This document shows, one piece after another, positions 3,863 through 49,423 of a DNA stretch of 55,358 nt. The DNA comes from Bernardetia sp. (GTDB lineage Bacteria > Bacteroidota > Bacteroidia > Cytophagales > Bernardetiaceae). Made by a program: the position numbers and the translations under genes. The stretch is from contig NZ_JAHDIG010000016.1 of NCBI RefSeq assembly GCF_020630935.1, forward strand, positions 6,590 through 61,947, given 5' to 3'. Below the pieces are notes generated by a model. That model was not told where the DNA came from. It ran no database searches and worked only from the letters and a program-made list of their open reading frames with translations. Numbering within the stretch: position 1 is the stretch's first letter; each line of letters opens with the position of its first letter.

Positions 3863-6343
3863 TTACCTCTTAATTTTACTTACAATTCTTCTCCACCACG
3901 ACATATTCATATCGTCTGTTTCATAATATCCATACGAACCATATCCACCATACGAACCATAGCCATATACTCCCATAGCTTGAGCTTTCACATCATTGAA
4001 GATAATTCCTACATGTTGTAGCATTTCTTCTGCATAAATGCGTTCTAATCCTTTTAATTTTTCGATTGGAGTTCTGTCTTGTCGAACAATATAAACAGAA
4101 GCATCAGCATATTTTCCTAAAATAAGCGCATCACTTACCAAACCTAGAGGAGGAGTATCAATAACTACATAATCATATCTTTTCTTCAACTCACTAATAA
4201 GTTCGTCCATAGTATTTCCCATTAATAACTCAGCTGGATTTGGAGGCACTAAACCTGCTGCAATTACATCTAAGTTATCTATGGCTGTTGGTTGAATCAC
4301 TTCATCTAATTCTTTACTTCCTATCAGATAGGTACTCAGTCCATCTTTGCTATACTCTCCATTTGGCATAGGCAAATACATTTGAGGTTTTCTCATATCT
4401 GCCACTATTAAAATAGCACGTTTTCCTGTTGATGCTAAAGAAATAGATATATTTGCAGAACAAAAAGATTTTCCTTCTCCAGATATAGATGAACTAATCA
4501 TTAGAGTTTTGGCTCTATCTACACGCCCCATCAAAAATAATAGATTTGATCGTATTGAACGAAATGCCTCTGCTAAAGATGATTTAGGTTGCTCATGAAA
4601 TAAAGGCGCATGATTTTGTTTCTTTTTCTTCTTAGAGTGCATTACTACACCCAGTATAGGTACGCTAGAAATATCTTTTACTTCTTCTAGTGTTTCAATA
4701 GTACTTCTAAAATAGTTTCTGACCTGTATAAGTCCAATAGGAAGGAGCAAGCCTAGAACTAATGCCATAATATAATTTTGTTTTGCATTAGGTGATATTG
4801 CACCATAATTGAAAGGAGGCTCTAATATTTGACTTTCTTCTCTAGCTGCAGCTTGTGCTATACTTGCCTCCATTCGTTTATTGAGAAGTAAAATATAAAT
4901 CTCCTCATTGATTGTGTATAGCCTATTGATATTTACTAATTTGCGTTCTGCACTAGGCAAAGAACTTATTTGCCTATTTAATTCGCTTATTCTACTTTCT
5001 AAATCTTGAGCTGCAATCTTATCATTCGACTTAGTATTTTTCAAATGCTCTAAAAGTGATTCTTTTACTTTATCTATTTCTATATTGATTTCTAATAAGA
5101 AAGGGTTTTTGCTACTTCCTTTTTCCAAATATACTTCTCTTTGAATTTGTAAATCTACTAATCTACTAATGAGTGTATTTGCAATTCCATCTTCTACTCC
5201 TACTGCTGCAGGTGTTGTTATTCCTTTATAGTTGTCATTATCCTTAATATAAGTTATTAAGTAGTCAAGATACTTACCTTTCATTTGTAGTTTTCTCTGT
5301 TCCTCCTCTAAGTAAGTATATTGCTCTAGGTTGCGCCCAACAGCATTTTCTCCAACAATAAACTTATTATTAGTCCTAAAATTTTGTATTTTATCTTCTA
5401 TCAAAAATAACGAATCTCTGATTTGAGCAAGTTGCTCATCTATAAAACCTATAGTACGTACAGCTTCTAGATTTTTATCCTCTAAACCGTATGCAATATA
5501 CTCTTGCATAACAGCATTAATAAAGTCTTTAGCACGTTCTGGAACAGAAGATACTACATTGAGACGAATAATAGAGGCATCTTCTTCTGCATAGGCAGAC
5601 AAACGCTTCGAAAAATTTCTAGCTAATGACGTTGGATTTGTAAATCGGAATCCATAAACACTTCCTTTTATTAAATTTTTATTCAAAATTTTGAAAGTAG
5701 TAGAACTTTCAGCGATTGTTTCCCCAAACTTATAGGTACGAGCTTGCTCCCATTCCTCATAGGAATTGATAAGTAAAAATGTTTTTTCATCTTCAAACTT
5801 AATCTTATAATTAGGAAGTTCTTTCAAAACACTGTCTGCATCGATATTTATAATTACCTCAAAAGGAGTATTTTTTTCTGGGTAAATCTCTGTGGTACGA
5901 ATGCTACCCTCTTGATAATAATACACTCGCATATCCATTTTTTCGCAAACTCTTTTTATGAATGGATAAGAACGTATAAACTTTATTTCAGCAGACAGAC
6001 GCTTACTTCCTCCAAACATATCTTCAGAATAAAGCAAAGCCACAGGTGAAGAGCCTTTTCTATTTTCTTTGATTTGAAGTGATGCACCTATTGTGTATAT
6101 AGGTGTGGCATAATAGGTCTTCCACCATGCAATAGAAAGAGCTACTCCTACACAAAAAGCAATAAAGAATTTATTTTTCCAGAGTGTATAAAGTATTTTC
6201 TTAGGGCTAAAACTATCCTTTTTACTATCTAAAAGTATAGATTGAGAGTTTTTTCTTACTGCTCGCTGCTGTTCTTCTTGCTGTGATTGACCATTTGTAG
6301 TACTGTTTGCTGTAACAGTAACAACATCTTTTTGAATATCCAA
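3863..6343 (-). CDS. wzc: Wzc-like polysaccharide co-polymerase / BY-kinase
   Basis: This is an inner-membrane chain-length regulator with a bacterial tyrosine kinase domain for capsule or exopolysaccharide export. The 826 residues show a membrane segment at about 57-77, a periplasmic Wzz/coiled-coil region and a second membrane segment at about 520-545. The cytoplasmic kinase has Walker A GEGKS (622-626), Walker A' around Asp649 and Walker B VVIDTPP (726-732). The C-terminal Tyr/Gly cluster holds tyrosines at 793, 795, 798, 801, 804, 806 and 807, the usual autophosphorylation tail. The start is TTG at 6343. An in-frame stop lies five codons upstream and no Met occurs before the first membrane segment, so TTG is hard to avoid. 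No wza, flippase or glycosyltransferase genes adjoin it. Confidence 0.9.
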   Translation of the reverse strand: MDIQKDVVTVTANSTTNGQSQQEEQQRAVRKNSQSILLDSKKDSFSPKKILYTLWKNKFFIAFCVGVALSIAWWKTYYATPIYTIGASLQIKENRKGSSPVALLYSEDMFGGSKRLSAEIKFIRSYPFIKRVCEKMDMRVYYYQEGSIRTTEIYPEKNTPFEVIINIDADSVLKELPNYKIKFEDEKTFLLINSYEEWEQARTYKFGETIAESSTTFKILNKNLIKGSVYGFRFTNPTSLARNFSKRLSAYAEEDASIIRLNVVSSVPERAKDFINAVMQEYIAYGLEDKNLEAVRTIGFIDEQLAQIRDSLFLIEDKIQNFRTNNKFIVGENAVGRNLEQYTYLEEEQRKLQMKGKYLDYLITYIKDNDNYKGITTPAAVGVEDGIANTLISRLVDLQIQREVYLEKGSSKNPFLLEINIEIDKVKESLLEHLKNTKSNDKIAAQDLESRISELNRQISSLPSAERKLVNINRLYTINEEIYILLLNKRMEASIAQAAAREESQILEPPFNYGAISPNAKQNYIMALVLGLLLPIGLIQVRNYFRSTIETLEEVKDISSVPILGVVMHSKKKKKQNHAPLFHEQPKSSLAEAFRSIRSNLLFLMGRVDRAKTLMISSSISGEGKSFCSANISISLASTGKRAILIVADMRKPQMYLPMPNGEYSKDGLSTYLIGSKELDEVIQPTAIDNLDVIAAGLVPPNPAELLMGNTMDELISELKKRYDYVVIDTPPLGLVSDALILGKYADASVYIVRQDRTPIEKLKGLERIYAEEMLQHVGIIFNDVKAQAMGVYGYGSYGGYGSYGYYETDDMNMSWWRRIVSKIKR

Positions 6344-15305: not shown

Positions 15306-16538
15306 GTGGCTGCACGTCCTACTTCTTATAAAATATTGGTGGCAGATGATTATGATAGCAACTTAGCTGTCATTGAGAGTATCTTCGAAGAATCTGGACA
15401 AGTATTCGAAATCATCTATGCTCACGACGGATTAGCAGCTTATGAAACAGCTATTTCTGAGTCGCCAGACTTAATCATAATGGATTGGGAAATGCCTCAA
15501 ATGACAGGAATAGAAGCTGTTAGAAAGCTCAAAGCACGAAAAGATACACAACACATTCCAATTATCATGACGACGGCTTTTACTTCGTCGGAACACTTGG
15601 AAACAGCCCTTCAAGCTGGTGCAATAGATTATGTCAGAAAACCTATCGATGAGGTAGAACTCTTGGCTCGTGTCAATTCTGCACTTCAACTGGTTACATC
15701 TTACAAGCAAATTATTGCTCAAAAAGATGAAATTCAAGAAAAAACTAAAAAATTAGAAGCAGCCTTTGATGAAATAGAAAAAAAGAACGACAAAATCATG
15801 AGTAGTATCAAATATGCCAAGCGCATACAAGATGCACTCTTACAGCCTACAGCTTCATTACAAAACTTTATTAAAGATTCCTTCATTCTCTACAAACCTC
15901 GTGATGTAGTGAGTGGTGATTTTTACTGGTTTTGTGAGAAAGATGAAAAAGTAGTGATTGCTGCCGTTGATTGTACTGGACACGGCGTTCCAGGAGCATT
16001 TATGTCTATGTTAGGAGATACGTATCTCAATCAAGTAATAGGCGTTATGGGAATTATTGAGCCTAATCAAATTCTTAGTCAGCTTCATGAGTCTATACGC
16101 AATGCACTCAAACAAGATGCTACACAAAATCGTGATGGAATGGATATTTCTATCTGTGTAATCGATAAAAAAGCCAAAACTTTGAAGTTTGCAGGAGCAA
16201 AAAATCCGTTGGTTTATATTCGTGATGGTGAAGTTGTTAGGATAAAAGGCGATACAGCTTCAATTGGTGGAAGAAGCACAGAAGTAAATTTCACAACACA
16301 TACTGTCGAACTTACAGACGAACCTACTCCGTTTTACATCTATTCAGACGGTTATCAAGACCAGTTTAGTAGTGGGATGCACAGTAAATTTATGGCAAAA
16401 CGTTTTCGTAAACTTCTTCATAAAGTCCATAAATATCCATTTTCAGAACAAAAAGATATTTTAAATCATATTTTGAAAGACTGGATGCGCCAAACTCGCC
16501 AAGTAGATGACATTTTGGTTATTGGTTTTGCTGTTTAA
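15306..16538 (+). CDS. Response regulator receiver fused to SpoIIE/PP2C phosphatase
   Basis: A 410-residue cytoplasmic protein. An N-terminal receiver domain (about 8-128) has the acidic pair in ILVADDYD, the phosphoacceptor Asp60 in DLIIMDWEMP, Thr90 and Lys112. A coiled coil (about 135-170) leads into a PP2C/SpoIIE serine phosphatase (about 175-410) with DVVSGDFYWF and DCTGHGVPGAFM as metal-binding motifs. Phosphorylation of the receiver probably controls dephosphorylation of a partner-switch protein, as in RsbU-like systems. The start is GTG, chosen because the receiver fold begins at residue 8 and the next Met is inside it. The partner kinase and antagonist are not adjacent. Confidence 0.9.
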   Translation: MAARPTSYKILVADDYDSNLAVIESIFEESGQVFEIIYAHDGLAAYETAISESPDLIIMDWEMPQMTGIEAVRKLKARKDTQHIPIIMTTAFTSSEHLETALQAGAIDYVRKPIDEVELLARVNSALQLVTSYKQIIAQKDEIQEKTKKLEAAFDEIEKKNDKIMSSIKYAKRIQDALLQPTASLQNFIKDSFILYKPRDVVSGDFYWFCEKDEKVVIAAVDCTGHGVPGAFMSMLGDTYLNQVIGVMGIIEPNQILSQLHESIRNALKQDATQNRDGMDISICVIDKKAKTLKFAGAKNPLVYIRDGEVVRIKGDTASIGGRSTEVNFTTHTVELTDEPTPFYIYSDGYQDQFSSGMHSKFMAKRFRKLLHKVHKYPFSEQKDILNHILKDWMRQTRQVDDILVIGFAV

Positions 16539-27879: not shown

Positions 27880-30800
27880 ATGAATAGTTTTGATAGTTGT
27901 GTTAAATATCAATACATGAAACATTCTTTTGTCTTTCTCTTTCTACTACTGTTCTGCAATTCTGTACAATATTCTCATGGACAGTCTATTGGTTTGCGTC
28001 ATTATGATGTAGATGAAGGACTTCCACAAGGAGATATTTATGGTATTACACAAGATGAGGATGGTTTTTTATGGATAGCTACAGGAAATGGGCTTTCTCG
28101 TTTTGATGGACACGATATGCAACCTTTCACTCAAAACGATGGATTGGCAGATAATTTCATTACTGCTATCGCCTCAGATTCCCTTAGAAATGGAACATGG
28201 CTCGGACATCCACAAGGATTGCTCTCCTATCACAACAAACAAAACGATTCTCTTCTAATTATCAATTTGCCAACACAAAACCTACTCAGCAGGATTCAAC
28301 AAATTTGTGTGGATAGAAAGCAAGTGTGGGCTTTGACGGAGAGAGAGGGCGTTTTCAGAATCAGTTTTGACGATATAGAAAATAATATTGAAAGTCCACA
28401 AGAAAACACTTCTTCTTTTGAGTATCAAAGTTCCTATTTTCCTTTAGGAAACTCTCATACAGAAAGATGTAATGTCTTTGAGAAACTATCTAATAATGAG
28501 TTTCTGGTAGGTACAGACAGTGGTCTTTTTGTTGCTTCTGTCAAAGACGAAAAATTTATTTTCACACAGCACATTCCAGAATTAAAAGGTATTCAAGTCC
28601 ATTCCATTACAAGAAAAAAACAAAATCAAATTGGTTTTTGGATTGGCACAAAAAACCACGGAATTTATAATTTTTTCTCTGCCAACGATGTAACAAAGGC
28701 GTTTTTAAATAGAGAAGAAATTAGTAATGCAGATATTACCTCCATTTTGGAAGATAAACGGGGTAAACTATGGATAGGAACAAAAAATGATGGACTTTTT
28801 AGAGTAGAATCAACAAAAAAAGAGGAAAAAGTTGTAAATATTGAACATTATACACAAAAAAACGGACTGCCTAGCTCTACTATTTCTTGTATTTTGCAAG
28901 ACTATGAGGGCAGTATTTGGATAGGTACAGAAAACGATGGACTGATTCAGATGCTCAATGAAATGTTTGAAATTTATACTTATACACACGGATTAAAAAG
29001 TGAAAATATTTTATCTATTCTTCGTCTAAACGAAAAAAGTCTTCTTTTAGGCACAGACCAAGGCATTACTTCTTTTACAACACAGGAAGATTCAACTACT
29101 TTTTCCCCTTACCTTAGCTCTCTATCTCAAGCCTCTGTCCGAACTTTATATAAAGATTCTTTGGGGAAAATATGGATAGGTACAGAAAAAAGAGGACTTT
29201 TTATCTACAACCCTACTACCAATTCTTTGTCTTCTGTTAGAGATGTTCCTGACAAGACTATCAATAAAATCACAGCCGATGATGATGGCAATATTTGGAT
29301 AGCTACTAATTCTTGGGGGCTTTTCAAATATGTTAAGAACGAACAACGTTTCGTACAAATTCTTCCTACCAAAACCGTACAGTTGAGTCGTATTCAAAAT
29401 ATTTATAAAGATAGAGAAAATCGTATTTGGATAGCCTCTTCAGACTATACACTCTCTTATTGGAAAGACGACAAACTTACTGTTTTGGATGCTATTCCAG
29501 AGTTTAGCCAAGTAAAAGCTACTTGTTTTGCAGAAGATGCTGAAAACACCCTTTGGATTGGCTCAGAAGGCTCTGGTGTGTTTGCTTATTCTGCTCAAGC
29601 AATAAAAAAATATACAACAGCAAACGGATTGGCTTCCAACTATTCCTATTTTATTGCTGCTGACAGAAATTACAATATCTGGATTGGTTCAAGAAAAGGA
29701 ATTACGAGGTTACGTCCAAAAGATGACTTAGCAAAAATATATCATAAATCTGATGGGCTTATAGGAACAGAAGCCAACAGAAGTGCAGTAGAAAAAGATA
29801 TGAATGGCGATTTGTGGTTTGGCACAACTAGAGGACTTATCCATTACATAGGACAAAACGACCATATCAATTTAGTTCGTCCAAAAGTTGTTTTGAGTGG
29901 TTTTCGTATTTTTGGAGAAGAACGTAATTTCGAAGAAAACTTAGTATTGCCTTATGAAGATTATAGCTTACGTTTTGATTTTAAAACCATTACATTTCGT
30001 TATCCAGAAAAAGTAAAGTTCAAATACCGATTAAATGGTTTTGATAAAAACTGGTCAGAAACAACAAGCCAAACTTTTGCTTATTATTCTCATTTAGAAG
30101 ACGGCGAATACGACTTTGAAGTATTAGCAACTAATGATGATGGAATTTGGGCTAGTACGCCAGCTACTTACTCATTTTCTATTGCTACACCTATTTGGAA
30201 AAGAACATGGTTTATAGTTTTTCTAGTATTTTTAGGTTTTATGCTTTTGGTAAGCTATGTTCGTTGGCGAACCAACTCTTTAGAAAAACAAAGACAGAAA
30301 CTAGAGTTAGAAGTAAAAAAACAAACTAAAAAACTAACTCATCAGAACGAAGCCTTAGAAAACACTAACTCATTATTAAAAGAATCTGAAAACGAACTCT
30401 CACAGTCTAATAGCATAAAAGACCGTATGTTTTCAATTATTTCTCACGACTTGCGTTCTCCTTTGGCTACTCTACAAAATTTCTTAAAGATGTTTATTTC
30501 ATATAGAAATGCGTTTACAGAAGAAGAAATAAACAAAGTAACAAGAGATATTGATAAGTCTTTGAGTAATGTAGGTGACCTTTTAGAAAACCTGTTGCAG
30601 TGGTCTAGGGCGCAAATGGGACATCTGGAAACAGAACTACAACCTCTCTTGATTACAGATTATGTTCAGAAAAATATTGAGTTGTTGTTACCCACAGCAA
30701 AAAATAAAAAAATAAACTTACAGGTTTCTGAAATCAAAGAAGAGCTTATTGCCGAAGCAGACCCTAACTTGCTCAATTTTATTCTTCGCAACCTTATCAG

Positions 30801-31110
30801 TAATGCTATAAAATTTACAGAACAACAAGGCACAGTAACAGTAAGCGCAAAACTTGATACCAAAACCGATAAAATGATTCATATTTCAGTCAAAGATACG
30901 GGGGTTGGAATGAGCGAAGAAACAGCAAGAAAAATATTTGTCAAATCAGAACACGTTACCACTAGAGGTACAGCCAATGAAAAAGGAACTGGCTTGGGTT
31001 TGATGGTTTGTAAGGAGTTTGTAGAAAAACAAAACGGCAAAATTTGGGTAGAAAGCAAAGAAGGAGAAGGTACGACCTTTACTTTTTCTATTAGGCAAGG
31101 AAAGATATAA
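27880..31110 (+). CDS. Propeller-domain sensor histidine kinase
   Basis: A 1076-residue transmembrane receptor. A signal peptide is followed by about twelve Reg_prop blades with repeated LWIGT/IWIGT motifs (about 40-680) and a Y_Y_Y domain (about 700-770). One membrane helix (about 775-797) and a coiled coil come next. A HisKA domain has His856 in SIISHDLRSP, and a HATPase has the N box around NLISNAIKF, DTGVGM and GTGLGL. Unlike typical Bacteroides hybrid systems, no receiver or AraC DNA-binding domain is attached, so a separate regulator is needed. The ATG at 27880 has the A-rich upstream context; the ATG at 27916 would give a shorter signal peptide and remains possible. Confidence 0.92.
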   Translation: MNSFDSCVKYQYMKHSFVFLFLLLFCNSVQYSHGQSIGLRHYDVDEGLPQGDIYGITQDEDGFLWIATGNGLSRFDGHDMQPFTQNDGLADNFITAIASDSLRNGTWLGHPQGLLSYHNKQNDSLLIINLPTQNLLSRIQQICVDRKQVWALTEREGVFRISFDDIENNIESPQENTSSFEYQSSYFPLGNSHTERCNVFEKLSNNEFLVGTDSGLFVASVKDEKFIFTQHIPELKGIQVHSITRKKQNQIGFWIGTKNHGIYNFFSANDVTKAFLNREEISNADITSILEDKRGKLWIGTKNDGLFRVESTKKEEKVVNIEHYTQKNGLPSSTISCILQDYEGSIWIGTENDGLIQMLNEMFEIYTYTHGLKSENILSILRLNEKSLLLGTDQGITSFTTQEDSTTFSPYLSSLSQASVRTLYKDSLGKIWIGTEKRGLFIYNPTTNSLSSVRDVPDKTINKITADDDGNIWIATNSWGLFKYVKNEQRFVQILPTKTVQLSRIQNIYKDRENRIWIASSDYTLSYWKDDKLTVLDAIPEFSQVKATCFAEDAENTLWIGSEGSGVFAYSAQAIKKYTTANGLASNYSYFIAADRNYNIWIGSRKGITRLRPKDDLAKIYHKSDGLIGTEANRSAVEKDMNGDLWFGTTRGLIHYIGQNDHINLVRPKVVLSGFRIFGEERNFEENLVLPYEDYSLRFDFKTITFRYPEKVKFKYRLNGFDKNWSETTSQTFAYYSHLEDGEYDFEVLATNDDGIWASTPATYSFSIATPIWKRTWFIVFLVFLGFMLLVSYVRWRTNSLEKQRQKLELEVKKQTKKLTHQNEALENTNSLLKESENELSQSNSIKDRMFSIISHDLRSPLATLQNFLKMFISYRNAFTEEEINKVTRDIDKSLSNVGDLLENLLQWSRAQMGHLETELQPLLITDYVQKNIELLLPTAKNKKINLQVSEIKEELIAEADPNLLNFILRNLISNAIKFTEQQGTVTVSAKLDTKTDKMIHISVKDTGVGMSEETARKIFVKSEHVTTRGTANEKGTGLGLMVCKEFVEKQNGKIWVESKEGEGTTFTFSIRQGKI

Positions 31111-40315: not shown

Positions 40316-43300
40316 ATGAAATTGCTATCTTCTTCTATAAAATTACAAAAGCATTTTAATAGCATTCTATTATTTTTATCTGCTGAATATTTTTTCCTTA
40401 TACTATTTTTCTTCTTTGGAAATAGCACCTTCTCATTTGCTCAACAACTTTCTTCTCAAAACCTTCAAGTTCAGCAAATGCAACAGGCACAAGCCATGAT
40501 GAACTTGCGCTTTAAGAAATTCAATTCCGATGATGGACTTGCTCAAAACAATGTTACAACTATATTGCAAGATACTCGTGGCTTTTTGTGGGTAGGTACA
40601 GGCGATGGACTTAGTCGTTATGATGGATATGAGTTCAAAAATTATACACACGTTGCAGAAGATTCTTCCTCTCTTTCGGGTGGAATGGTAACAGCTCTAC
40701 ATCAAGATGCTAACGGAGTGCTTTGGGTTGGTACAACAAATGGAATTAATAAATATGACTTCACTCAAGACCGTTTTGTACAATATAGACTAAAAGAAAG
40801 TAGAATTTCTAATCTGAATATGCGTACTGTCAGAAGTATCTTTCAAGATAGTTATGGCATTCTTTGGGTAGGAACAGAAAATGGAATCAAGATTTATGAT
40901 AAACTGAATAATAGCATAGAATATTCTCAAGAATATAATGGCTTGACAGATGCTCCTGTGTTGGCTCTTTATGAAGATTATGACAGTACGCTTTGGGTAG
41001 GTACAGAAAGTGGACTTTACCAACTAGATAGAAAACGTAGAGCATTTACTTCTGTATTCATCAATGATGAACAAATTACACAATTTCCTGTCTATACTTT
41101 TTTTGAAGATAAAAAGAGAAATCTTTGGATTGGAACACAAGAAGGAGCATTCAGACTGGATGCAAAAAGAGAAAAATTCCAAAAATATTCTACCAAAACT
41201 ACTCCATATCCTCTTAGCAACGATATTGTAAAAACAATAGCACAAGACCAAAAAGGAGATATTTGGATAGGCACGTACGGAGGAGGAATCAATCGTATTG
41301 TTGCCAAAACCAATCAGGTTATACATATTCAAAAAAATGATGCTGAACAATATTCGTTGAGTGATGATATTGTACAAACCATTTATCACGACCGAAGTGG
41401 AATTATATGGATAGGAACGTATGATGGATTAAATAAATATGATGAGGAAAAAGAAGTTTTCTACAATTATCCTATTCCATTGCAGTATGTAGCTCACAAT
41501 TTACAGAAAGAAATATGGGCAATAGAACAAGATTATTTGGGCAATACATGGCTAGGAACAGAAAATGGATTGTATGTTTACATGCCCAAACCTGAATCTA
41601 CTCAGTGGGAACTTATCAAGATTAGTGATAAAATAGGACTTCGTGGCAAACATATTCTTAGTCTTTTAGAAGATAAAAAAGGAAATTTATGGATAGGGAC
41701 ATTACAAGATGGATTGTATAAATATTCTCTCAAATCGCTTGGTTCGGCTGGTAACTCTACCTCTGAAGCAATTCCTTTTGACCTCACTCAACTTGCTAAC
41801 AAACCTTCAAAGACTGACCCTCAACTGGCAGAAAATAGTATTTGGACAATGATGCAAGATACGTATAACGATATTTGGGTAGGAACAAATAATGGATTAT
41901 ATGCCATAAAAGACAAATCGGAAGAGGTTCATAAATATACTGAAAGAGATGGTTCTGGCTTGAGTGATAACTCAATTTGGGCATTATTACAAGACCGTTA
42001 TGGTATTCTTTGGGTAGGAACAAGTAATGGACTAAACCGTTTTAGAAAGCAAAGCAATGATTTTCTTACCTATAATCAAGCTAATGATAATACGGGTGGT
42101 TTGAGCAATGGCTATATTGTTACGCTTTTTGAAGATGAAACAGGCGTGCTTTGGGCTGGTACGCACGGAGGAGGTCTGAACCGTTTTCATAAAGAAGCTG
42201 ATAATTTTACGCATTATACAGAAAAAGACGGATTGCCTGATGGTGTTATTTATGCTATCGAACAAGATAATAGTCGTCATTTGTGGATTAGTACCAACCG
42301 AGGACTTTCAAGATTTAATATCGATACACAAGTATTTAGAAACTACGATGCCAACGACGGATTACCTAGTAATCGTTTCAATCATAATGCAGTAGAGAGA
42401 ACAAAAAATGGAGAACTTATCTTTGGAACAACCTACGGAATTACAGTCTTTCATCCAGATAGCATCAAAGACAACAACTATATTCCACCTGTTTATCTTA
42501 CAAATCTCAAAATTTTGGGAAGAGATATTCGTGCTAACGACGAGACAGGCATTTTGAGTAGAAATATTGCTCAAACAGATATGATAACCCTTTCTCATGG
42601 ACAAAATAGCTTTACAGTAGATTTTGTTGCTCTAAATTATCGTCTTCCTAAAAAGACAGTCTATATGTACAAACTAGAAGGTTTCGATGATGAGTGGCAC
42701 TATACTTCATATAGAAATCATACAGCTTCTTACACCAATTTACCCGAAGGAAGAGAATATATTTTGAGGGTAAAAGCTGCAAATAGTGATGGCTATTGGA
42801 ATGAAAGTGGCGCAACCTTACGCATTTATATAAAACCTCCTTACTGGGAAGCTATATGGTTTAAAATTGCCTTAGCAATGCTTTTTATGAGTGCGATAGC
42901 CTCGTTTTGGTTTTGGAGAAATGGAGAAATGCAAAAGCAAAAAAGTCGTCTTTCATTAGAAGTACATCAGAGAACCAACGAGCTAGAGCAAGAAAAAGAA
43001 AAATTACAAATTGCTTATAATGAAATATCTAGCCAAAGCCGTCAGATTTTGGATATGAATGCCGTTTTGAAGCAAAAACAAGCCGAAGTAATGGCACAAC
43101 GAGACGACCTTTCAAAGCAAAGAAATGAAATAGAAAATTCGTATCAGAATGTTCGTGTACTTTCAGATATTGGTCAGCAAGTTACGGCAACCTTAGATTT
43201 TGACCAAATGGTGTCTGTTCTTTATCAGCACGTCAATACATTAATGGATGCTCCAGGTTTTGGTATTGGTGTTTTGAATGAAAAGAGTAATCTTATTGAA

Positions 43301-44446
43301 TTTAGAGGATATTCTGTTGAAGGAAGCCAACTCAATTACGATTTTAATGCTGCGAGAGACAAGACTTTACTTTCTGCTTGGGCAATTCGCAACCAAAAAG
43401 AAGTAAAAATAGGAGATTTGCAAAGCGAATACGCCAAGTATGTTGCTGGCGAAGTGGTGGCTGTGGGAAATACCATTCCAAAATCATTGATTTATCTGCC
43501 TTTGGCAATCAAAAACCGTCCTGTGGGAGTTTTGACCGTACAATCATTACAAAAAAACACATATTCAGACCGTCATCTGACATTGCTAAAAGGGCTTGCT
43601 TCGTATGTTTCTATTGCACTAGACAATATTCACAACTATTCTGAACTGGGCGAGGCTAAAAATTTGATTCAAGAAAGTAGTGTTCGCATTATGGACAGTC
43701 TGCGCTATGCTCAAACAATTCAAGAGGCAATTTTGCCAACACAAGATATGTTTGAGAACAATTTTGATGATTCTTTCATTATGTTTCAGCCTAAAGACGT
43801 TGTTTCTGGAGATTTTTACTGGCTTAGAGAAATTGATGGTCGTACTTTTATTGCCTCTGTGGATTGTACGGGACATGGCGTTCCAGGGGCATTTATGTCA
43901 ATGATTGGAAGTAGATTATTAAATGAAATTATTAATGAAGCCAATGTTTTAGAACCAGCCAAAATTTTGGATGAATTGCATGTGCGCCTAAAAAATGCTC
44001 TCAAGCAAGAAGACTCTAAAAACGATGATGGAATGGATGTTTCTCTATGTAGAATAGATGCTTTAGAGGAAGATACCCTAGAAAGAGAAATTGTTTTTGC
44101 AGGAGCAAAACGCCATGCCGTTTGGGTAAGCAGAGGTGAATCTCATATTTTGAAAGGCGATAAAAAATCTATTGGTGGATGGAGAAAAAACAAAAAACGT
44201 CCGTTTATCCAACTACAAATGACAGCTAAAAAAGGCGATGCACTTTATTTATTTACTGATGGAATTACTGACCAAAACAATGTAGCAGGAGCAAAATATG
44301 GTTCGAAACGACTACATCAGCTCTTAAATCAGAATGCAGATTTTGATATGAGTGAACAAAAAACTATTTTAGAAGAAGATTTGGCTCGTCATCAAGGAAA
44401 TCAAAAACAGAGAGATGATATTACTCTTATCGGAATTAGACTATAA
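40316..44446 (+). CDS. Propeller receptor with GAF and PP2C phosphatase output
   Basis: A 1376-residue transmembrane protein. A long signal sequence (to about residue 43) is followed by some fourteen Reg_prop blades (about 55-745) with repeated LWVGT/IWIGT motifs, arranged like the periplasmic sensor of hybrid systems, then a Y_Y_Y domain (about 775-838). After a membrane helix (about 845-868) come a coiled coil (about 870-945), a GAF domain (about 948-1108) and a SpoIIE/PP2C phosphatase (about 1120-1376) with DVVSGDFYWL and DCTGHGVPGAFM. The phosphatase replaces the kinase normally joined to such propellers. A SiaB-type kinase gene follows 126 nt downstream, suggesting an antagonistic pair. 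Confidence 0.92.
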   Translation: MKLLSSSIKLQKHFNSILLFLSAEYFFLILFFFFGNSTFSFAQQLSSQNLQVQQMQQAQAMMNLRFKKFNSDDGLAQNNVTTILQDTRGFLWVGTGDGLSRYDGYEFKNYTHVAEDSSSLSGGMVTALHQDANGVLWVGTTNGINKYDFTQDRFVQYRLKESRISNLNMRTVRSIFQDSYGILWVGTENGIKIYDKLNNSIEYSQEYNGLTDAPVLALYEDYDSTLWVGTESGLYQLDRKRRAFTSVFINDEQITQFPVYTFFEDKKRNLWIGTQEGAFRLDAKREKFQKYSTKTTPYPLSNDIVKTIAQDQKGDIWIGTYGGGINRIVAKTNQVIHIQKNDAEQYSLSDDIVQTIYHDRSGIIWIGTYDGLNKYDEEKEVFYNYPIPLQYVAHNLQKEIWAIEQDYLGNTWLGTENGLYVYMPKPESTQWELIKISDKIGLRGKHILSLLEDKKGNLWIGTLQDGLYKYSLKSLGSAGNSTSEAIPFDLTQLANKPSKTDPQLAENSIWTMMQDTYNDIWVGTNNGLYAIKDKSEEVHKYTERDGSGLSDNSIWALLQDRYGILWVGTSNGLNRFRKQSNDFLTYNQANDNTGGLSNGYIVTLFEDETGVLWAGTHGGGLNRFHKEADNFTHYTEKDGLPDGVIYAIEQDNSRHLWISTNRGLSRFNIDTQVFRNYDANDGLPSNRFNHNAVERTKNGELIFGTTYGITVFHPDSIKDNNYIPPVYLTNLKILGRDIRANDETGILSRNIAQTDMITLSHGQNSFTVDFVALNYRLPKKTVYMYKLEGFDDEWHYTSYRNHTASYTNLPEGREYILRVKAANSDGYWNESGATLRIYIKPPYWEAIWFKIALAMLFMSAIASFWFWRNGEMQKQKSRLSLEVHQRTNELEQEKEKLQIAYNEISSQSRQILDMNAVLKQKQAEVMAQRDDLSKQRNEIENSYQNVRVLSDIGQQVTATLDFDQMVSVLYQHVNTLMDAPGFGIGVLNEKSNLIEFRGYSVEGSQLNYDFNAARDKTLLSAWAIRNQKEVKIGDLQSEYAKYVAGEVVAVGNTIPKSLIYLPLAIKNRPVGVLTVQSLQKNTYSDRHLTLLKGLASYVSIALDNIHNYSELGEAKNLIQESSVRIMDSLRYAQTIQEAILPTQDMFENNFDDSFIMFQPKDVVSGDFYWLREIDGRTFIASVDCTGHGVPGAFMSMIGSRLLNEIINEANVLEPAKILDELHVRLKNALKQEDSKNDDGMDVSLCRIDALEEDTLEREIVFAGAKRHAVWVSRGESHILKGDKKSIGGWRKNKKRPFIQLQMTAKKGDALYLFTDGITDQNNVAGAKYGSKRLHQLLNQNADFDMSEQKTILEEDLARHQGNQKQRDDITLIGIRL

Positions 44447-44462
44447 TTGATAATGGTCAATG

Positions 44463-44561
44463 GTTAGTGATAAATGATGAATGAAAAATACTTTAAACAT
44501 AAAATAAATACATTTCTTCTAGCTTACACATCTTTCACTGGTAACTAATTACTGCTAACTG
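44463..44561. repeat. Dispersed intergenic repeat, copy A
   Basis: It begins with GTTAGTGA and contains TGATGAATGAAAAATAC (44475-44491), identical to 50479-50495. It ends with TTACTGCTAACTG (44549-44561), also found twice at 50521-50547. The middle part differs. The repeat separates the propeller phosphatase from the SiaB-type kinase. Confidence 0.7.
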
Positions 44562-44572
44562 AACACTGAAAA

Positions 44573-45118
44573 ATGCTTGATTTATACCCTTCTCTAACAC
44601 AAAAAGACGTTATTCTGATGTATCAAGGTGCTATGTCTCAAACTATCTTGGCTACCATGGCGTTGCCTTTGCGTGAGACAGAAGAAGATTATTTGATTAG
44701 TAAACGTCTTTTTGCAATCATTATAGAATTAGGACAAAATATCAATCATTATTCTGAAAAAAGAGAGTTTTCTATTGCTGACAGAAGAGAAGTAGGCTGT
44801 GGAATGTTGGTGGTACAAAAAACAGATACAGAGTATATTTTTACGGCAGCTAATAAAATAAAGACCAGCAAAATAGAAAAAATGAAAAAACACTGTGAAC
44901 ATATCAACTCTCTCAATAGTAAAAAACTAAGAAGTTTTTATCGTTCGCAGCGTCGTGCTACTCGTGATGATGGACGTTACGGAGGAAATATTGGCTTTAT
45001 AGAAATGGTTAGAAGGTCTCACAACCCACTAGAGACTAAGTTTACCCTTTCAACAAAAGATTCAACAATGGCTTACTTTTCTATTCAAGTAAAGATGAGT
45101 AGAATAGATGTTTTTTAG
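44573..45118 (+). CDS. SiaB family protein kinase (DUF6272)
   Basis: A 181-residue cytoplasmic protein of the GHKL-like SiaB family. LFAIIIELGQNINHYSEKREF is the N-box-like region and GGNIGFIEMVRRS the region near the C-terminal ATP lid. In Pseudomonas SiaB phosphorylates SiaC, the PP2C enzyme SiaA removes the phosphate, and SiaC controls the diguanylate cyclase SiaD. Here the kinase follows a propeller-GAF-PP2C protein that would be the SiaA-like partner. No SiaC-type (DUF1987) gene lies in the window. Confidence 0.82.
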   Translation: MLDLYPSLTQKDVILMYQGAMSQTILATMALPLRETEEDYLISKRLFAIIIELGQNINHYSEKREFSIADRREVGCGMLVVQKTDTEYIFTAANKIKTSKIEKMKKHCEHINSLNSKKLRSFYRSQRRATRDDGRYGGNIGFIEMVRRSHNPLETKFTLSTKDSTMAYFSIQVKMSRIDVF

Positions 45119-46385: not shown

Positions 46386-47525
46386 TTATAGTGTTTTCTT
46401 TTTTGAATCAAAAGAACAAATCATAGAAACTTGAAACGTTTCATCATAGATAGAATTGTCTGTTGTTGCTTTTATAAAAGAAACATTTAATTCGATAAAT
46501 TTATGTTCATAACCAGTTCCCAAACTGACAAAACGATTGTTGCCTTTGTTTCTACTTTCTTGATAATATCCACCTCTTAGTTTTAATTTATCTTTGTAAG
46601 AATATTCTGTTCCTAAAGACAAAATAAGTTCTTGCATTTCTTCTCTAAAGCCATTGGGCGCATCAGAAAAAGAACTAAAAATAGAAGAAAATACACTTTG
46701 TGTTGGCGTTGGATTAGAAGGATTTGGTGTAGGGACTAACAGCTTATTTACATCAAACGTAAACGTGAGTAGATTATCTTGATTCAGATGATTGGTAAAA
46801 GCTGTTCCGATACCTAAGTTAGCAGGCAGGTATTCTTTCACAACAGATTGAACTACGATAGGCGCACCGATATTTGAAATATTTACGCCAAAATTCCAAT
46901 CTACTTGTTTTTCTTTTATCGTAAATCCACTTTCATAAAGAGCCGAAATATCTACTGCTCCTGTATGATGTGATTCAACAGAAGGATTTCCTTGTGTATC
47001 AAATATAGCTTGTTCAGAATTGATATATCGGAATGTTCCTGCAAGGCTTAATTTTTTAGATACTTTTTGAGCAAAAGTTGCATCAATAGCTAAGTCACGC
47101 CCTAATGAAAGCTCTTGTGTCTGTCCTAATGAATTGTTATAAATAATATCTCCTTTTCCAAAATAACGAGAAGAAATGGCAATAGTTTGTTTCTCATTTA
47201 GTTTTTTGGCTGCTGAAAAATACCCTAACCAAATATCATCCACTATACGCCTTAACATAGGCGAATAAGAAGCTCCAAAGTTCCACTCTTTTTCAAGAGA
47301 AGTTAGTTTTGACGGATTCCAAAAAGTAGCATTTATATCAGCAGAGGTTGCAATACCTGTATTTCCCATTCCACTGGCACGAGCATCAGGGGAGAAACAT
47401 AACGAAGGAACAGCAGTTATAATTTGCTGGTTGGTTGGATTTGTAACTACTTGAGCTTTCACTTCAAGGAAAATAGAGAGAAAAAATACAATAGAAAGAA
47501 TACACCAAATTTTAATTGCTTGCAT
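46386..47525 (-). CDS. porV: PorV/PorQ family T9SS outer-membrane protein, paralogue 1
   Basis: A 379-residue exported protein with a signal peptide (about 1-24, ending VKAQ). ITAVPSLCFSPDARASGMGNTGIATS, FWNPSKL and NFGASYSPMLRRIVDDIWLGY are PorV signatures, and the C-terminal strands form the beta-barrel. In T9SS PorV carries cargo from the SprA channel to the attachment complex. It resembles the second copy at 47899-49089 throughout. The two are separated by about 370 nt containing a MITE-like element, so they are probably transcribed separately. Confidence 0.88.
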   Translation of the reverse strand: MQAIKIWCILSIVFFLSIFLEVKAQVVTNPTNQQIITAVPSLCFSPDARASGMGNTGIATSADINATFWNPSKLTSLEKEWNFGASYSPMLRRIVDDIWLGYFSAAKKLNEKQTIAISSRYFGKGDIIYNNSLGQTQELSLGRDLAIDATFAQKVSKKLSLAGTFRYINSEQAIFDTQGNPSVESHHTGAVDISALYESGFTIKEKQVDWNFGVNISNIGAPIVVQSVVKEYLPANLGIGTAFTNHLNQDNLLTFTFDVNKLLVPTPNPSNPTPTQSVFSSIFSSFSDAPNGFREEMQELILSLGTEYSYKDKLKLRGGYYQESRNKGNNRFVSLGTGYEHKFIELNVSFIKATTDNSIYDETFQVSMICSFDSKKKTL

Positions 47526-47898: not shown

Positions 47899-49089
47899 TT
47901 AGTTAGCAGCTCCGTCTTCGGGAGTATCTATTTTATCTCCTTTATTGATATTGAATAAAAGAGAAAAACGAATAGTGTCAGCCAAAGGATGTTGTTGTTG
48001 GTTTGGAATAAGGTAAGCGAAATCAAAACCAAATACTTGGTAACGCAAGCCTAAACCTACTGTAAAATAACGACGATTTCCTTTTTCTTGGTTTTCGTGA
48101 AAATAACCACCACGAAGAGCAATCAAATCGGCATACCAATATTCAGCACCCACAGCAAAAATCATTTCCTTTACTTCTTCACCAAATCCATCTGGCGCAT
48201 CTCCAAAAGATTTAAAAATAGAAGATAAAACAGGGTCGTTTGCTCCATTTGAAGCCGTATTTTCAGGTGTTGGTACAAGGAGTTTGCTTATATCAAAGGC
48301 TAGAGTAAGTTTGTTAAACTCGTCAAACTGTCCGTTGAAAGCTGTTCCGATACGCAAATTAGCAGGTAAATAGTCTTGTTGTGAGGCATCGTTGTAAGTA
48401 ACTGGCGCACCAATATTTGAGATATTTGCACCCAATGCCCAGTCGCCTTCAAAGCTCTTAAAATTAAGTTTGCTTTTATAAAACATCGAAACATCTACTG
48501 CACCTGTGTTGGCTGGACGAGTATTTGTGTTAGGCGTTCCATTGGTTACATTTCCTGCTAAATTGGAATGAATAAAACGAAACGTACCAGCAATACTTAA
48601 TTTTTTAGAAAGCTGTTGTGCAAAAGTGGCATCAATGGCTGCTTCACGAGGATTAAAATCTTGCAAAGGCTCACCTCTATCATTTGTAAACTGAAGATTT
48701 CCCATATCAAAATAACGGAAAGAAACTCCTACAGTCTGTGTTTTGGAAATGCGTTTTACACCACTCACATAACCTAACCACATATCATTTACCAATTTCT
48801 GTAACCATGGAGAATATGAAACGCCAAACGACCAGTCATTTTCTATAAAAGCTAATTTTGAAGGATTCCAATGTGCTGCATTTGCATCTGGAGAAGTAGC
48901 TGCGCCCAAATCGCCCATACCAGCAGCACGAGAGTCAGGTCCTACAAGTAGGATAGGAACTGCCGTTGTGATTACTCTACGACCAGTAGAATCTAAGCCA
49001 ATTTGAGCTAATGAAGTATTATAATTGGAGTAGAGAAAACTCACTACAAAGCAACCTAAAATGGCTGCAAGAACTTTACGTATTTGCAT
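47899..49089 (-). CDS. porV: T9SS outer-membrane protein PorV, paralogue 2
   Basis: A 396-residue outer-membrane protein with a signal peptide ending near SLAQ. ITTAVPILLVGPDSRAAGMG, HWNPSKLAF and FGVSYSPWLQKLVNDMWLGYV are the PorV hallmarks and are closer to the canonical protein than in the neighbouring paralogue. The ATG at 49089 (MQIRKVLAAILGCF) is chosen over the ATG at 49122. It gives a normal signal peptide, matches the start of paralogue 1, and leaves room for a TATATTTG -7 element at 49120-49127 that would otherwise be inside the gene. Confidence 0.92.
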   Translation of the reverse strand: MQIRKVLAAILGCFVVSFLYSNYNTSLAQIGLDSTGRRVITTAVPILLVGPDSRAAGMGDLGAATSPDANAAHWNPSKLAFIENDWSFGVSYSPWLQKLVNDMWLGYVSGVKRISKTQTVGVSFRYFDMGNLQFTNDRGEPLQDFNPREAAIDATFAQQLSKKLSIAGTFRFIHSNLAGNVTNGTPNTNTRPANTGAVDVSMFYKSKLNFKSFEGDWALGANISNIGAPVTYNDASQQDYLPANLRIGTAFNGQFDEFNKLTLAFDISKLLVPTPENTASNGANDPVLSSIFKSFGDAPDGFGEEVKEMIFAVGAEYWYADLIALRGGYFHENQEKGNRRYFTVGLGLRYQVFGFDFAYLIPNQQQHPLADTIRFSLLFNINKGDKIDTPEDGAAN

Positions 49090-49423
49090 ACAATTATTTA
49101 GTTTTATAAAATAAAATTTCAAATATATATTTAGTTTTGAAAGCTGAAGGGACTAAGCCTCATCATATCTTTTTTACTTGAAAGGTATCACTCTTTAGTT
49201 AGACAAAATATTATTTTCTGATACACTATTTTTCACGAAATAAAAGACAAGTAAAATTTTTGTTCATAGGCTAATCAGCACGTAAACTAAGGGAATAGCC
49301 AAAGAATTTGGCAAAGTAGATATTGATTTGAACCACTACAAAAATAGAAAAAAAAAGGTGTAAAGCGTAATAAAGATGAGTAAATATGAAAAAAGTTAAA
49401 AAATTAATCTTGCAAAATCTTTA
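49090..49423. other. Intergenic DNA upstream of porV
   Basis: No gene was found. It holds the possible porV -7 element and a small GCCAAA-gaa-TTTGGC hairpin (49298-49312). Confidence 0.3.
49120..49127 (-). promoter_or_regulatory. Possible -7 element for porV
   Basis: TATATTTG on the minus strand fits TAnnTTTG and lies 30 nt upstream of the preferred porV start at 49089. No TTG at the -33 distance. Confidence 0.45.

Follow-up and report, generated by a model that had tools for sequence, protein, structure and literature searches.

Propeller sensors of the Reg_prop/Y_Y_Y shape are usual drivers of histidine kinases. In the SiaABCD system of Pseudomonas aeruginosa, the PP2C domain of SiaA is a homodimer both in the crystal and in solution, and residue 61 of SiaB is its predicted catalytic glutamate (PMC7647112). 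Control through coiled-coil linkers has been proposed as a general feature of PPM phosphatases (PMC12143880). Among the open-licence papers searched we found no description of a propeller PP2C beside SiaB; a Xanthomonas c-di-GMP paper contains the terms Reg_prop, Y_Y_Y and GAF (PMC6637768).

Here we consider a locus of Bernardetia sp. in which such a propeller receptor, ending in a PP2C phosphatase, precedes a gene for a SiaB-family kinase. The window (the whole stretch of DNA analyzed, 55,358 nucleotides) belongs to contig C16 of genome G000, a 4.75-Mb assembly of 153 contigs that is 97.4% complete. At a probability of roughly 55%, we read the receptor (SiaA-W) and the kinase (SiaB-W) as counteracting enzymes of a SiaABC-type partner switch that is dispersed over the genome, with its target encoded at another locus, most likely by a SiaC gene on contig C46 (SiaC-W). 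It is highly probable, in our view, that the two act on a SiaC protein, whether one of their own or a shared one. The features of the locus, in window coordinates, are as follows.

40316-44446 (+): SiaA-like membrane receptor phosphatase, 1376 aa (exact ORF coordinates, domain matches, PDB matches, hydropathy)
40364-40420 (+): N-terminal hydrophobic segment, aa 17-35 of the receptor (hydropathy scan)
40571-42163 (+): span of eight strict propeller repeat motifs, aa 86-616, within the receptor Reg_prop region (domain search, motif scan, PDB 4a2l match)
42635-42835 (+): receptor Y_Y_Y domain, aa 774-840 (domain match)
42851-42907 (+): predicted transmembrane helix of the receptor, aa 846-864 (hydropathy scan)
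42911-43186 (+): predicted continuous helix from membrane to GAF, aa 866-957 (AlphaFold model of receptor aa 865-1376)
43193-43624 (+): receptor GAF domain, aa 960-1103 (domain match)
43568-43732 (+): predicted helix from GAF to PP2C, aa 1085-1139 (AlphaFold model of receptor aa 865-1376)
43835-44440 (+): receptor SpoIIE/PP2C phosphatase domain, aa 1174-1375 (Pfam)
44447-44572 (no strand): spacer between receptor and SiaB-W, 126 bases
44573-45118 (+): SiaB-family kinase SiaB-W, 181 aa, with IELGQN at 51 and GGNIG at 137 (family match, alignment, structure model)

The Receptor Phosphatase

The initial annotation had described a propeller receptor with GAF and PP2C domains, followed by a SiaB-type kinase, and these domain calls hold in Pfam, NCBIfam and PDB searches. 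In the receptor, Pfam matched Reg_prop (1.1e-68, in 12 stretches), Y_Y_Y (5e-15), GAF_2 (3.3e-15) and SpoIIE (5.5e-20), and the PP2C motifs are GDFYW at 1165, DCTGHG at 1183, TDG at 1314 and RDDIT at 1366. The propeller part matched the solved sensor domains 4a2l (2.4e-123), 3v9f (5.1e-84) and 3ott (2.3e-45), while the PP2C part matched 6k4e (2.8e-38), which is the SiaA PP2C domain (PMC7647112). The PP2C aspartates and motifs showed no variation across 13 aligned PP2Cs; judged by its sequence, the receptor would be a membrane-bound PP2C with intact metal-site motifs, as expected for a SiaABC switch. Because the hydropathy scan gave two hydrophobic segments (aa 17-35 and 846-864), the propeller is probably outside and the GAF and PP2C domains inside. 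An AlphaFold model of aa 865-1376, built with 13 sequences (mean pLDDT 80.5, pTM 0.55), predicts a 92-residue helix running into the GAF domain and a 55-residue helix running out of it into the PP2C domain, an arrangement consistent with, though no proof of, the control by coiled-coil linkers suggested for PPM phosphatases. By a simple count, which is rough given that dS of some pairs approaches or exceeds 1, dN/dS of the receptor was 0.06-0.08.

The SiaB-Family Kinase

The annotation's idea of a phosphatase/kinase pair resembling SiaA/SiaB is supported by family cut-offs and by the 6k4e and 6kko matches. SiaB-W matched DUF6272 (5.3e-33) and scored 137.1 bits against a cut-off of 85 for SiaB_fam_kinase (NCBIfam NF038262), placing it over the subfamily cut-off and under the equivalog cut-off. 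Equivalog scores of the window pair were 193.1 bits against a cut-off of 700 and 74.8 against 225 (NF038263 and NF038264), and on these scores we rejected the idea that the two are orthologs, in the strict sense, of SiaA or SiaB of P. aeruginosa. Against PDB sequences, 6kko was the sole match of SiaB-W up to E = 1. Its AlphaFold model (mean pLDDT 87.2) found as best structural match 6kko_A, from the SiaB-SiaC complex (Z 18.3 over 156 residues). In an alignment of 29 SiaB proteins E52, Q55, N56 and G141 are invariant and G137 nearly so. By manual count on the alignment, E52, within IELGQN, falls opposite position 62 of the chain 6kko_A, a register that agrees with catalytic glutamate 61 if the 6kko_A chain has one extra residue. 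The nearest named SiaB loci, at 84% identity, are in Flexibacter sp. and Bernardetia sp. assemblies (Bacteroidota).

A kinase-like fold could also serve a protein that mainly sequesters its partner, as anti-sigma factors do, with weak or no kinase activity and with the phosphatase freeing the captive. In keeping with this, SpoIIAB, RsbW and other anti-sigma factors come next after 6kko_A among the structural matches of the predicted SiaB-W fold, with Z falling from 12.5 to 10.6; the glutamate, N-box and G-box residues are nevertheless conserved, the closest structure is that of SiaB, a reported kinase (PMC7647112), and we consider this reading very improbable.

Conservation of the Pair

A full-length counterpart of the receptor was found in all 11 genomes of the family (G000-G010), at 42-90% identity to the window receptor; SiaB-W was found in 9/11, SiaC-W in 9/11 and all three genes in 8/11. 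Conservation of the pair, which the initial annotation had proposed to check, was borne out in seven of these genomes: receptor and SiaB-W are adjacent in six of the genus's seven genomes and in G009 of another genus, whose pair is 45 and 40% identical to the window pair. It did not extend to G001, G007, G008 and G010, where SiaB-W is not beside the receptor, and the broken pairing among relatives that the annotation would have taken as refuting its reading is to that extent half borne out. In G001 the receptor is 88% identical to that of the window, and only 76 bases lie between its end and the GNAT gene that in the window comes after SiaB; SiaB is therefore absent from this syntenic locus, and the genome has SiaA-W and SiaC-W without SiaB-W. 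G007 has SiaA-W and SiaB-W without SiaC-W, and its contig ends 1 kb past the receptor; in G008 each of the three genes is on a different contig; and G010 (84% complete) has SiaA-W alone of the three. SiaB-W is adjacent to SiaC-W in none of the family genomes, and co-occurrence of the two over 11 related genomes carries little weight.

The four genomes in which SiaA-W has no adjacent SiaB, G007 with the contig end just mentioned, would suit a receptor phosphatase that acts independently, for example on a STAS protein, with the neighboring SiaB a separate gene; the same may be said of another propeller PP2C of the window genome, which lies directly before a STAS gene (L267). Against such independence, the order and strand of receptor and SiaB-W are kept in all seven adjacent cases, another genus included, with gaps of 16-127 bases in six distinct cases, and at two further loci a propeller PP2C has both SiaB and SiaC as neighbors: on a contig of Kapaibacterium (L243), with a gap of 453 bases, and at a non-orthologous locus of the same family (G010 contig C48, in the order SiaB-SiaC-PP2C). 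We hold an independent receptor to be improbable. No terminator-like site was among those listed for the 126-base spacer. By the same simple count, rough where dS is near or above 1, dN/dS was 0.11 and 0.16 for SiaB-W. Given the low dN/dS and a pair kept in another genus at 45/40% identity, the pairing of receptor and SiaB-W is more than chance.

As for the signal, the annotation's suggestion of a polysaccharide found no support: the nearest annotated neighbors, DUF2147, HtrA, GNAT, DUF4293, two PorV and PyrF, are not polysaccharide-utilization genes among the ORFs tested, and a polysaccharide-biosynthesis-type tyrosine kinase at 3863-6343 is 34 kb from the pair with no sign of a link. The two neighboring PorV (type IX secretion) genes, at 46386-47525 and 47899-49122 (-), are both over the PorV equivalog cut-off.

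A Probable SiaC Target Elsewhere in the Genome

That a SiaC-type target is missing locally was confirmed, with no SiaC-family match on contig C16 and none among ORFs of at least 90 aa along the 18-kb stretch L051; the putative operon of receptor and SiaB-W thus lacks the SiaC gene of a SiaABC switch. The genome search that the annotation had called for returned seven SiaC-family matches (one weak, in a 255-aa frame) alongside six SiaB and 76 SpoIIE matches. SiaC lies directly 3′ of five of the six SiaB genes, SiaB-W being the exception, and the C46 SiaC is in turn without a SiaB in its 18-kb stretch or on its contig. The acceptor threonine, T70 in the numbering of the C46 SiaC, is present in 13/13 aligned SiaC proteins, within YxNT in 12/13, and its counterpart in P. 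aeruginosa SiaC is T68 in LLYLNTSSIK (PMC7647112). A SiaC-family protein with the acceptor threonine, as a SiaABC switch needs, is therefore encoded in the genome. By the simple count, rough where dS is near or above 1, dN/dS of SiaC-W is about 0.04, a strong constraint. A divergent SiaC-like domain occurs in a 254-aa ORF on contig C6 (L050:10294-11058; 49 bits, over the cut-off), in which YxNT reads YIAT and the threonine is kept; G002, G003 and G006 have one weak match each like that on C6.

Trees of 56 SiaB and 56 SiaC proteins, two long SiaC-like ORFs (>230 aa) having been left out of the latter, form matching clades and mirror each other. No member of the SiaB-W clade has an adjacent SiaC, and none of the SiaC-W clade has an adjacent SiaB. 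By elimination, since the trees leave these two partnerless clades to each other, SiaC-W is the most likely target of SiaB-W as far as sequence comparison goes. The SiaB-W clade had support of 96/84 (starred) for eight rows without G007_C9, several of them on long branches, and of 91/79 (not starred) for nine rows including the G008 copy on contig C45, which entered the second SiaB tree only and is absent from the census of SiaB loci. In two genomes SiaB-W and SiaC-W share one contig, separated by about 87 kb in G002 and about 51 kb in G003. Among outside SiaB proteins that have a SiaC next to them, that of G012:C2 is closest to SiaB-W (38% identity); its SiaC, which takes no firm position in the tree, does not group with the SiaC-W clade, and this pair therefore does not decide the partner.

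Distance comparisons gave a coarser answer. In G000, G002 and G003, distance vectors of SiaB-W correlated at 0.73-0.80 with the SiaC group of contigs C53, C51 and C46, and at 0.26 or less with the next type; these tests agree that the partner would belong to this group. In the mirror-tree test the C46 SiaC ranked third (0.731 vs. 0.781) or second (0.763 vs. 0.803) in the window genome, and the SiaC-W type came first in G004, G005 (where the two rival SiaC types are absent from the fetched set) and G009, and not in G000, G002 or G003. One-to-one assignment gave the SiaC-W type for G004 and G005, and another SiaC for G000, G002, G003 and G009. In controls the true adjacent partner came first in 25/40 and 31/40 mirror-tree cases and was recovered by assignment in 32/39. 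The “outside family” reference set of the mirror-tree test (48 pairs) included named duplicates of family genomes, that of the assignment (44 pairs) had listed family duplicates removed, and G006 was excluded from both tests. Choosing the partner by distance correlation was rejected as too weak within the C53/C51/C46 group.

How Common Is the Arrangement?

Our census comprised 99 distinct SiaB loci, from fetched loci only and biased toward the family of the window genome. SiaC is directly downstream in 83 of the 94 loci with at least 600 bases downstream, and a PP2C gene lies within 500 bases upstream on the same strand in 32 of the 92 with 1500 bases upstream. The window clade, with its propeller PP2C, makes up six of the 11 loci that lack SiaC. 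Clusters of SiaB-SiaC-SiaB-SiaC (L210:9983-12039) and SiaB-SiaC-SiaC (L220:2049-3625) were seen in other Cytophagales, and two adjacent SiaB matches, each with a 390-aa open frame, on contig C132 of G011 (3976-4947); G011 has 14 SiaC matches, and G054 has 21 SiaB matches.

The initial annotation had called the sensor one normally used by hybrid kinases. In the window genome this is reversed: Y_Y_Y gave 24 matches at E 0.01, 23 of them over the curated cut-off, and 21 of these 23 receptors are PP2C phosphatases. In this genome, then, a propeller ordinarily goes with a PP2C, and it is the pairing with SiaB that is unique. The two other proteins over the cut-off are one on contig C8 and a second propeller receptor within the window, with HisKA and HATPase_c (27880-31110, +). 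A PP2C gene lies within 500 bases upstream of only three of the six SiaB genes, those on C2, C9 and C16, and is a propeller only on C16. The SpoIIE-type matches fall in 75 ORFs, counted for the window genome alone; a local repeat model called 13 of these 75 propellers, an undercount by the Y_Y_Y search. The highest number of protein phosphatases, of all kinds, reported by 2010 was 55 (PMC2887360). One SpoIIE/PP2C in the window is fused to a response-regulator receiver (15306-16538, +), and a propeller PP2C, a stand-alone STAS protein and a second PP2C follow in that order on contig C13 (L267:959-7626), which puts a candidate STAS target beside a propeller phosphatase. STAS had four matches in the genome, three of them small proteins, and HATPase_c_2 seven, with two small proteins clearly over the cut-off; all matches listed for either family are on contigs other than C16.

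Such numbers invite a different reading, in which many phosphatases converge on few switches and the receptor and SiaB-W serve several SiaC (perhaps STAS) proteins with no private target. It would account for 75 SpoIIE-type ORFs beside six SiaB, seven SiaC, three small STAS and two small HATPase_c_2 proteins, for the scatter of SiaB-linked PP2C domains through the PP2C tree (a quick tree, with 42 of 92 inner branches open), for the about equal fit of SiaB-W distances to the C53, C51 and C46 SiaC types in G000, and for the presence of SiaA-W and SiaC-W without SiaB-W in G001. Matched pairs are favored, however, by five of the six SiaB genes, each with an adjacent SiaC of its own, and by trees that agree clade for clade; two B. 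subtilis PPM phosphatases are about 400- and 4000-fold substrate-selective (PMC11418112). On balance we regard a shared network as unlikely, if well short of negligible.

More speculatively, and as a possibility that we hold only tentatively, propeller receptors of this lineage may largely have switched output from histidine kinases to PP2C, with some 75 phosphatases converging on a few SiaC or STAS switches and the window pair the sole propeller phosphatase with its own SiaB-type kinase, in a dispersed SiaABC system with a non-c-di-GMP output. The imbalance of 75 phosphatases to seven SiaC-family and six SiaB proteins makes substrate choice by PP2C receptors testable.

Proposed Mechanism and Output

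In the dispersed switch that we favor, binding of a ligand by the periplasmic propeller would change the receptor dimer, and the change would be relayed through Y_Y_Y, the membrane helix, the long helix, GAF and the second helix to the cytoplasmic PP2C domain. The active phosphatase would strip phosphate off a SiaC-family protein, SiaB-W would rephosphorylate it at the conserved threonine (T70 of the C46 SiaC), and the unphosphorylated SiaC may then bind an effector. This effector would be other than a SiaD-type diguanylate cyclase, because GGDEF had no match in the window genome (97.4% complete), with eight of 14 control genomes positive; a SiaD-like output was rejected on this ground. The SiaC of such a switch would thus have to do something other than activate a diguanylate cyclase. 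The neighbors of SiaC-W at nine loci offered no convincing effector; they include a 195-aa protein without a convincing family at 7/9 loci and an ABC ATPase at 6/9. In G009, SiaC-W is flanked by the genes for a DUF5686 protein and RuvC, and a TPR-CHAT protein is encoded downstream (L156:2516-10645).

Comparison With Known Systems

With the Reg_prop/Y_Y_Y histidine kinases and hybrids (4a2l, 3v9f, 3ott) the window receptor shares the propeller, the Y_Y_Y domain and one predicted transmembrane helix, but its output is GAF and PP2C. Pfam found no HisKA, HATPase, receiver or HTH match in ORF 40316-44446, that is, none of the histidine kinase, receiver and DNA-binding output of a hybrid two-component protein. 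The sensor domains of this receptor class that have been solved are those of two-component proteins, and the model gives the class a concrete, testable wiring.

As in the RsbU/SpoIIE-RsbW/SpoIIAB-RsbV/SpoIIAA switches, a PP2C would oppose a kinase with the predicted fold of an anti-sigma factor. In contrast to those switches, the kinase is of the SiaB family and its presumed target of the SiaC family, the contig has no STAS match, and no STAS antagonist with an RsbW-type kinase stands beside the phosphatase at the window locus.

From SiaABCD of P. aeruginosa the locus differs in its sensor, which is a propeller with Y_Y_Y and GAF where SiaA bears HAMP (PMC7647112; PMC8457831), in a contig without SiaC and in a genome without a GGDEF match. 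It resembles SiaABCD in joining a PP2C membrane phosphatase to a SiaB-family kinase, in a genome whose SiaC proteins carry the threonine (PMC7647112; PMC8457831).
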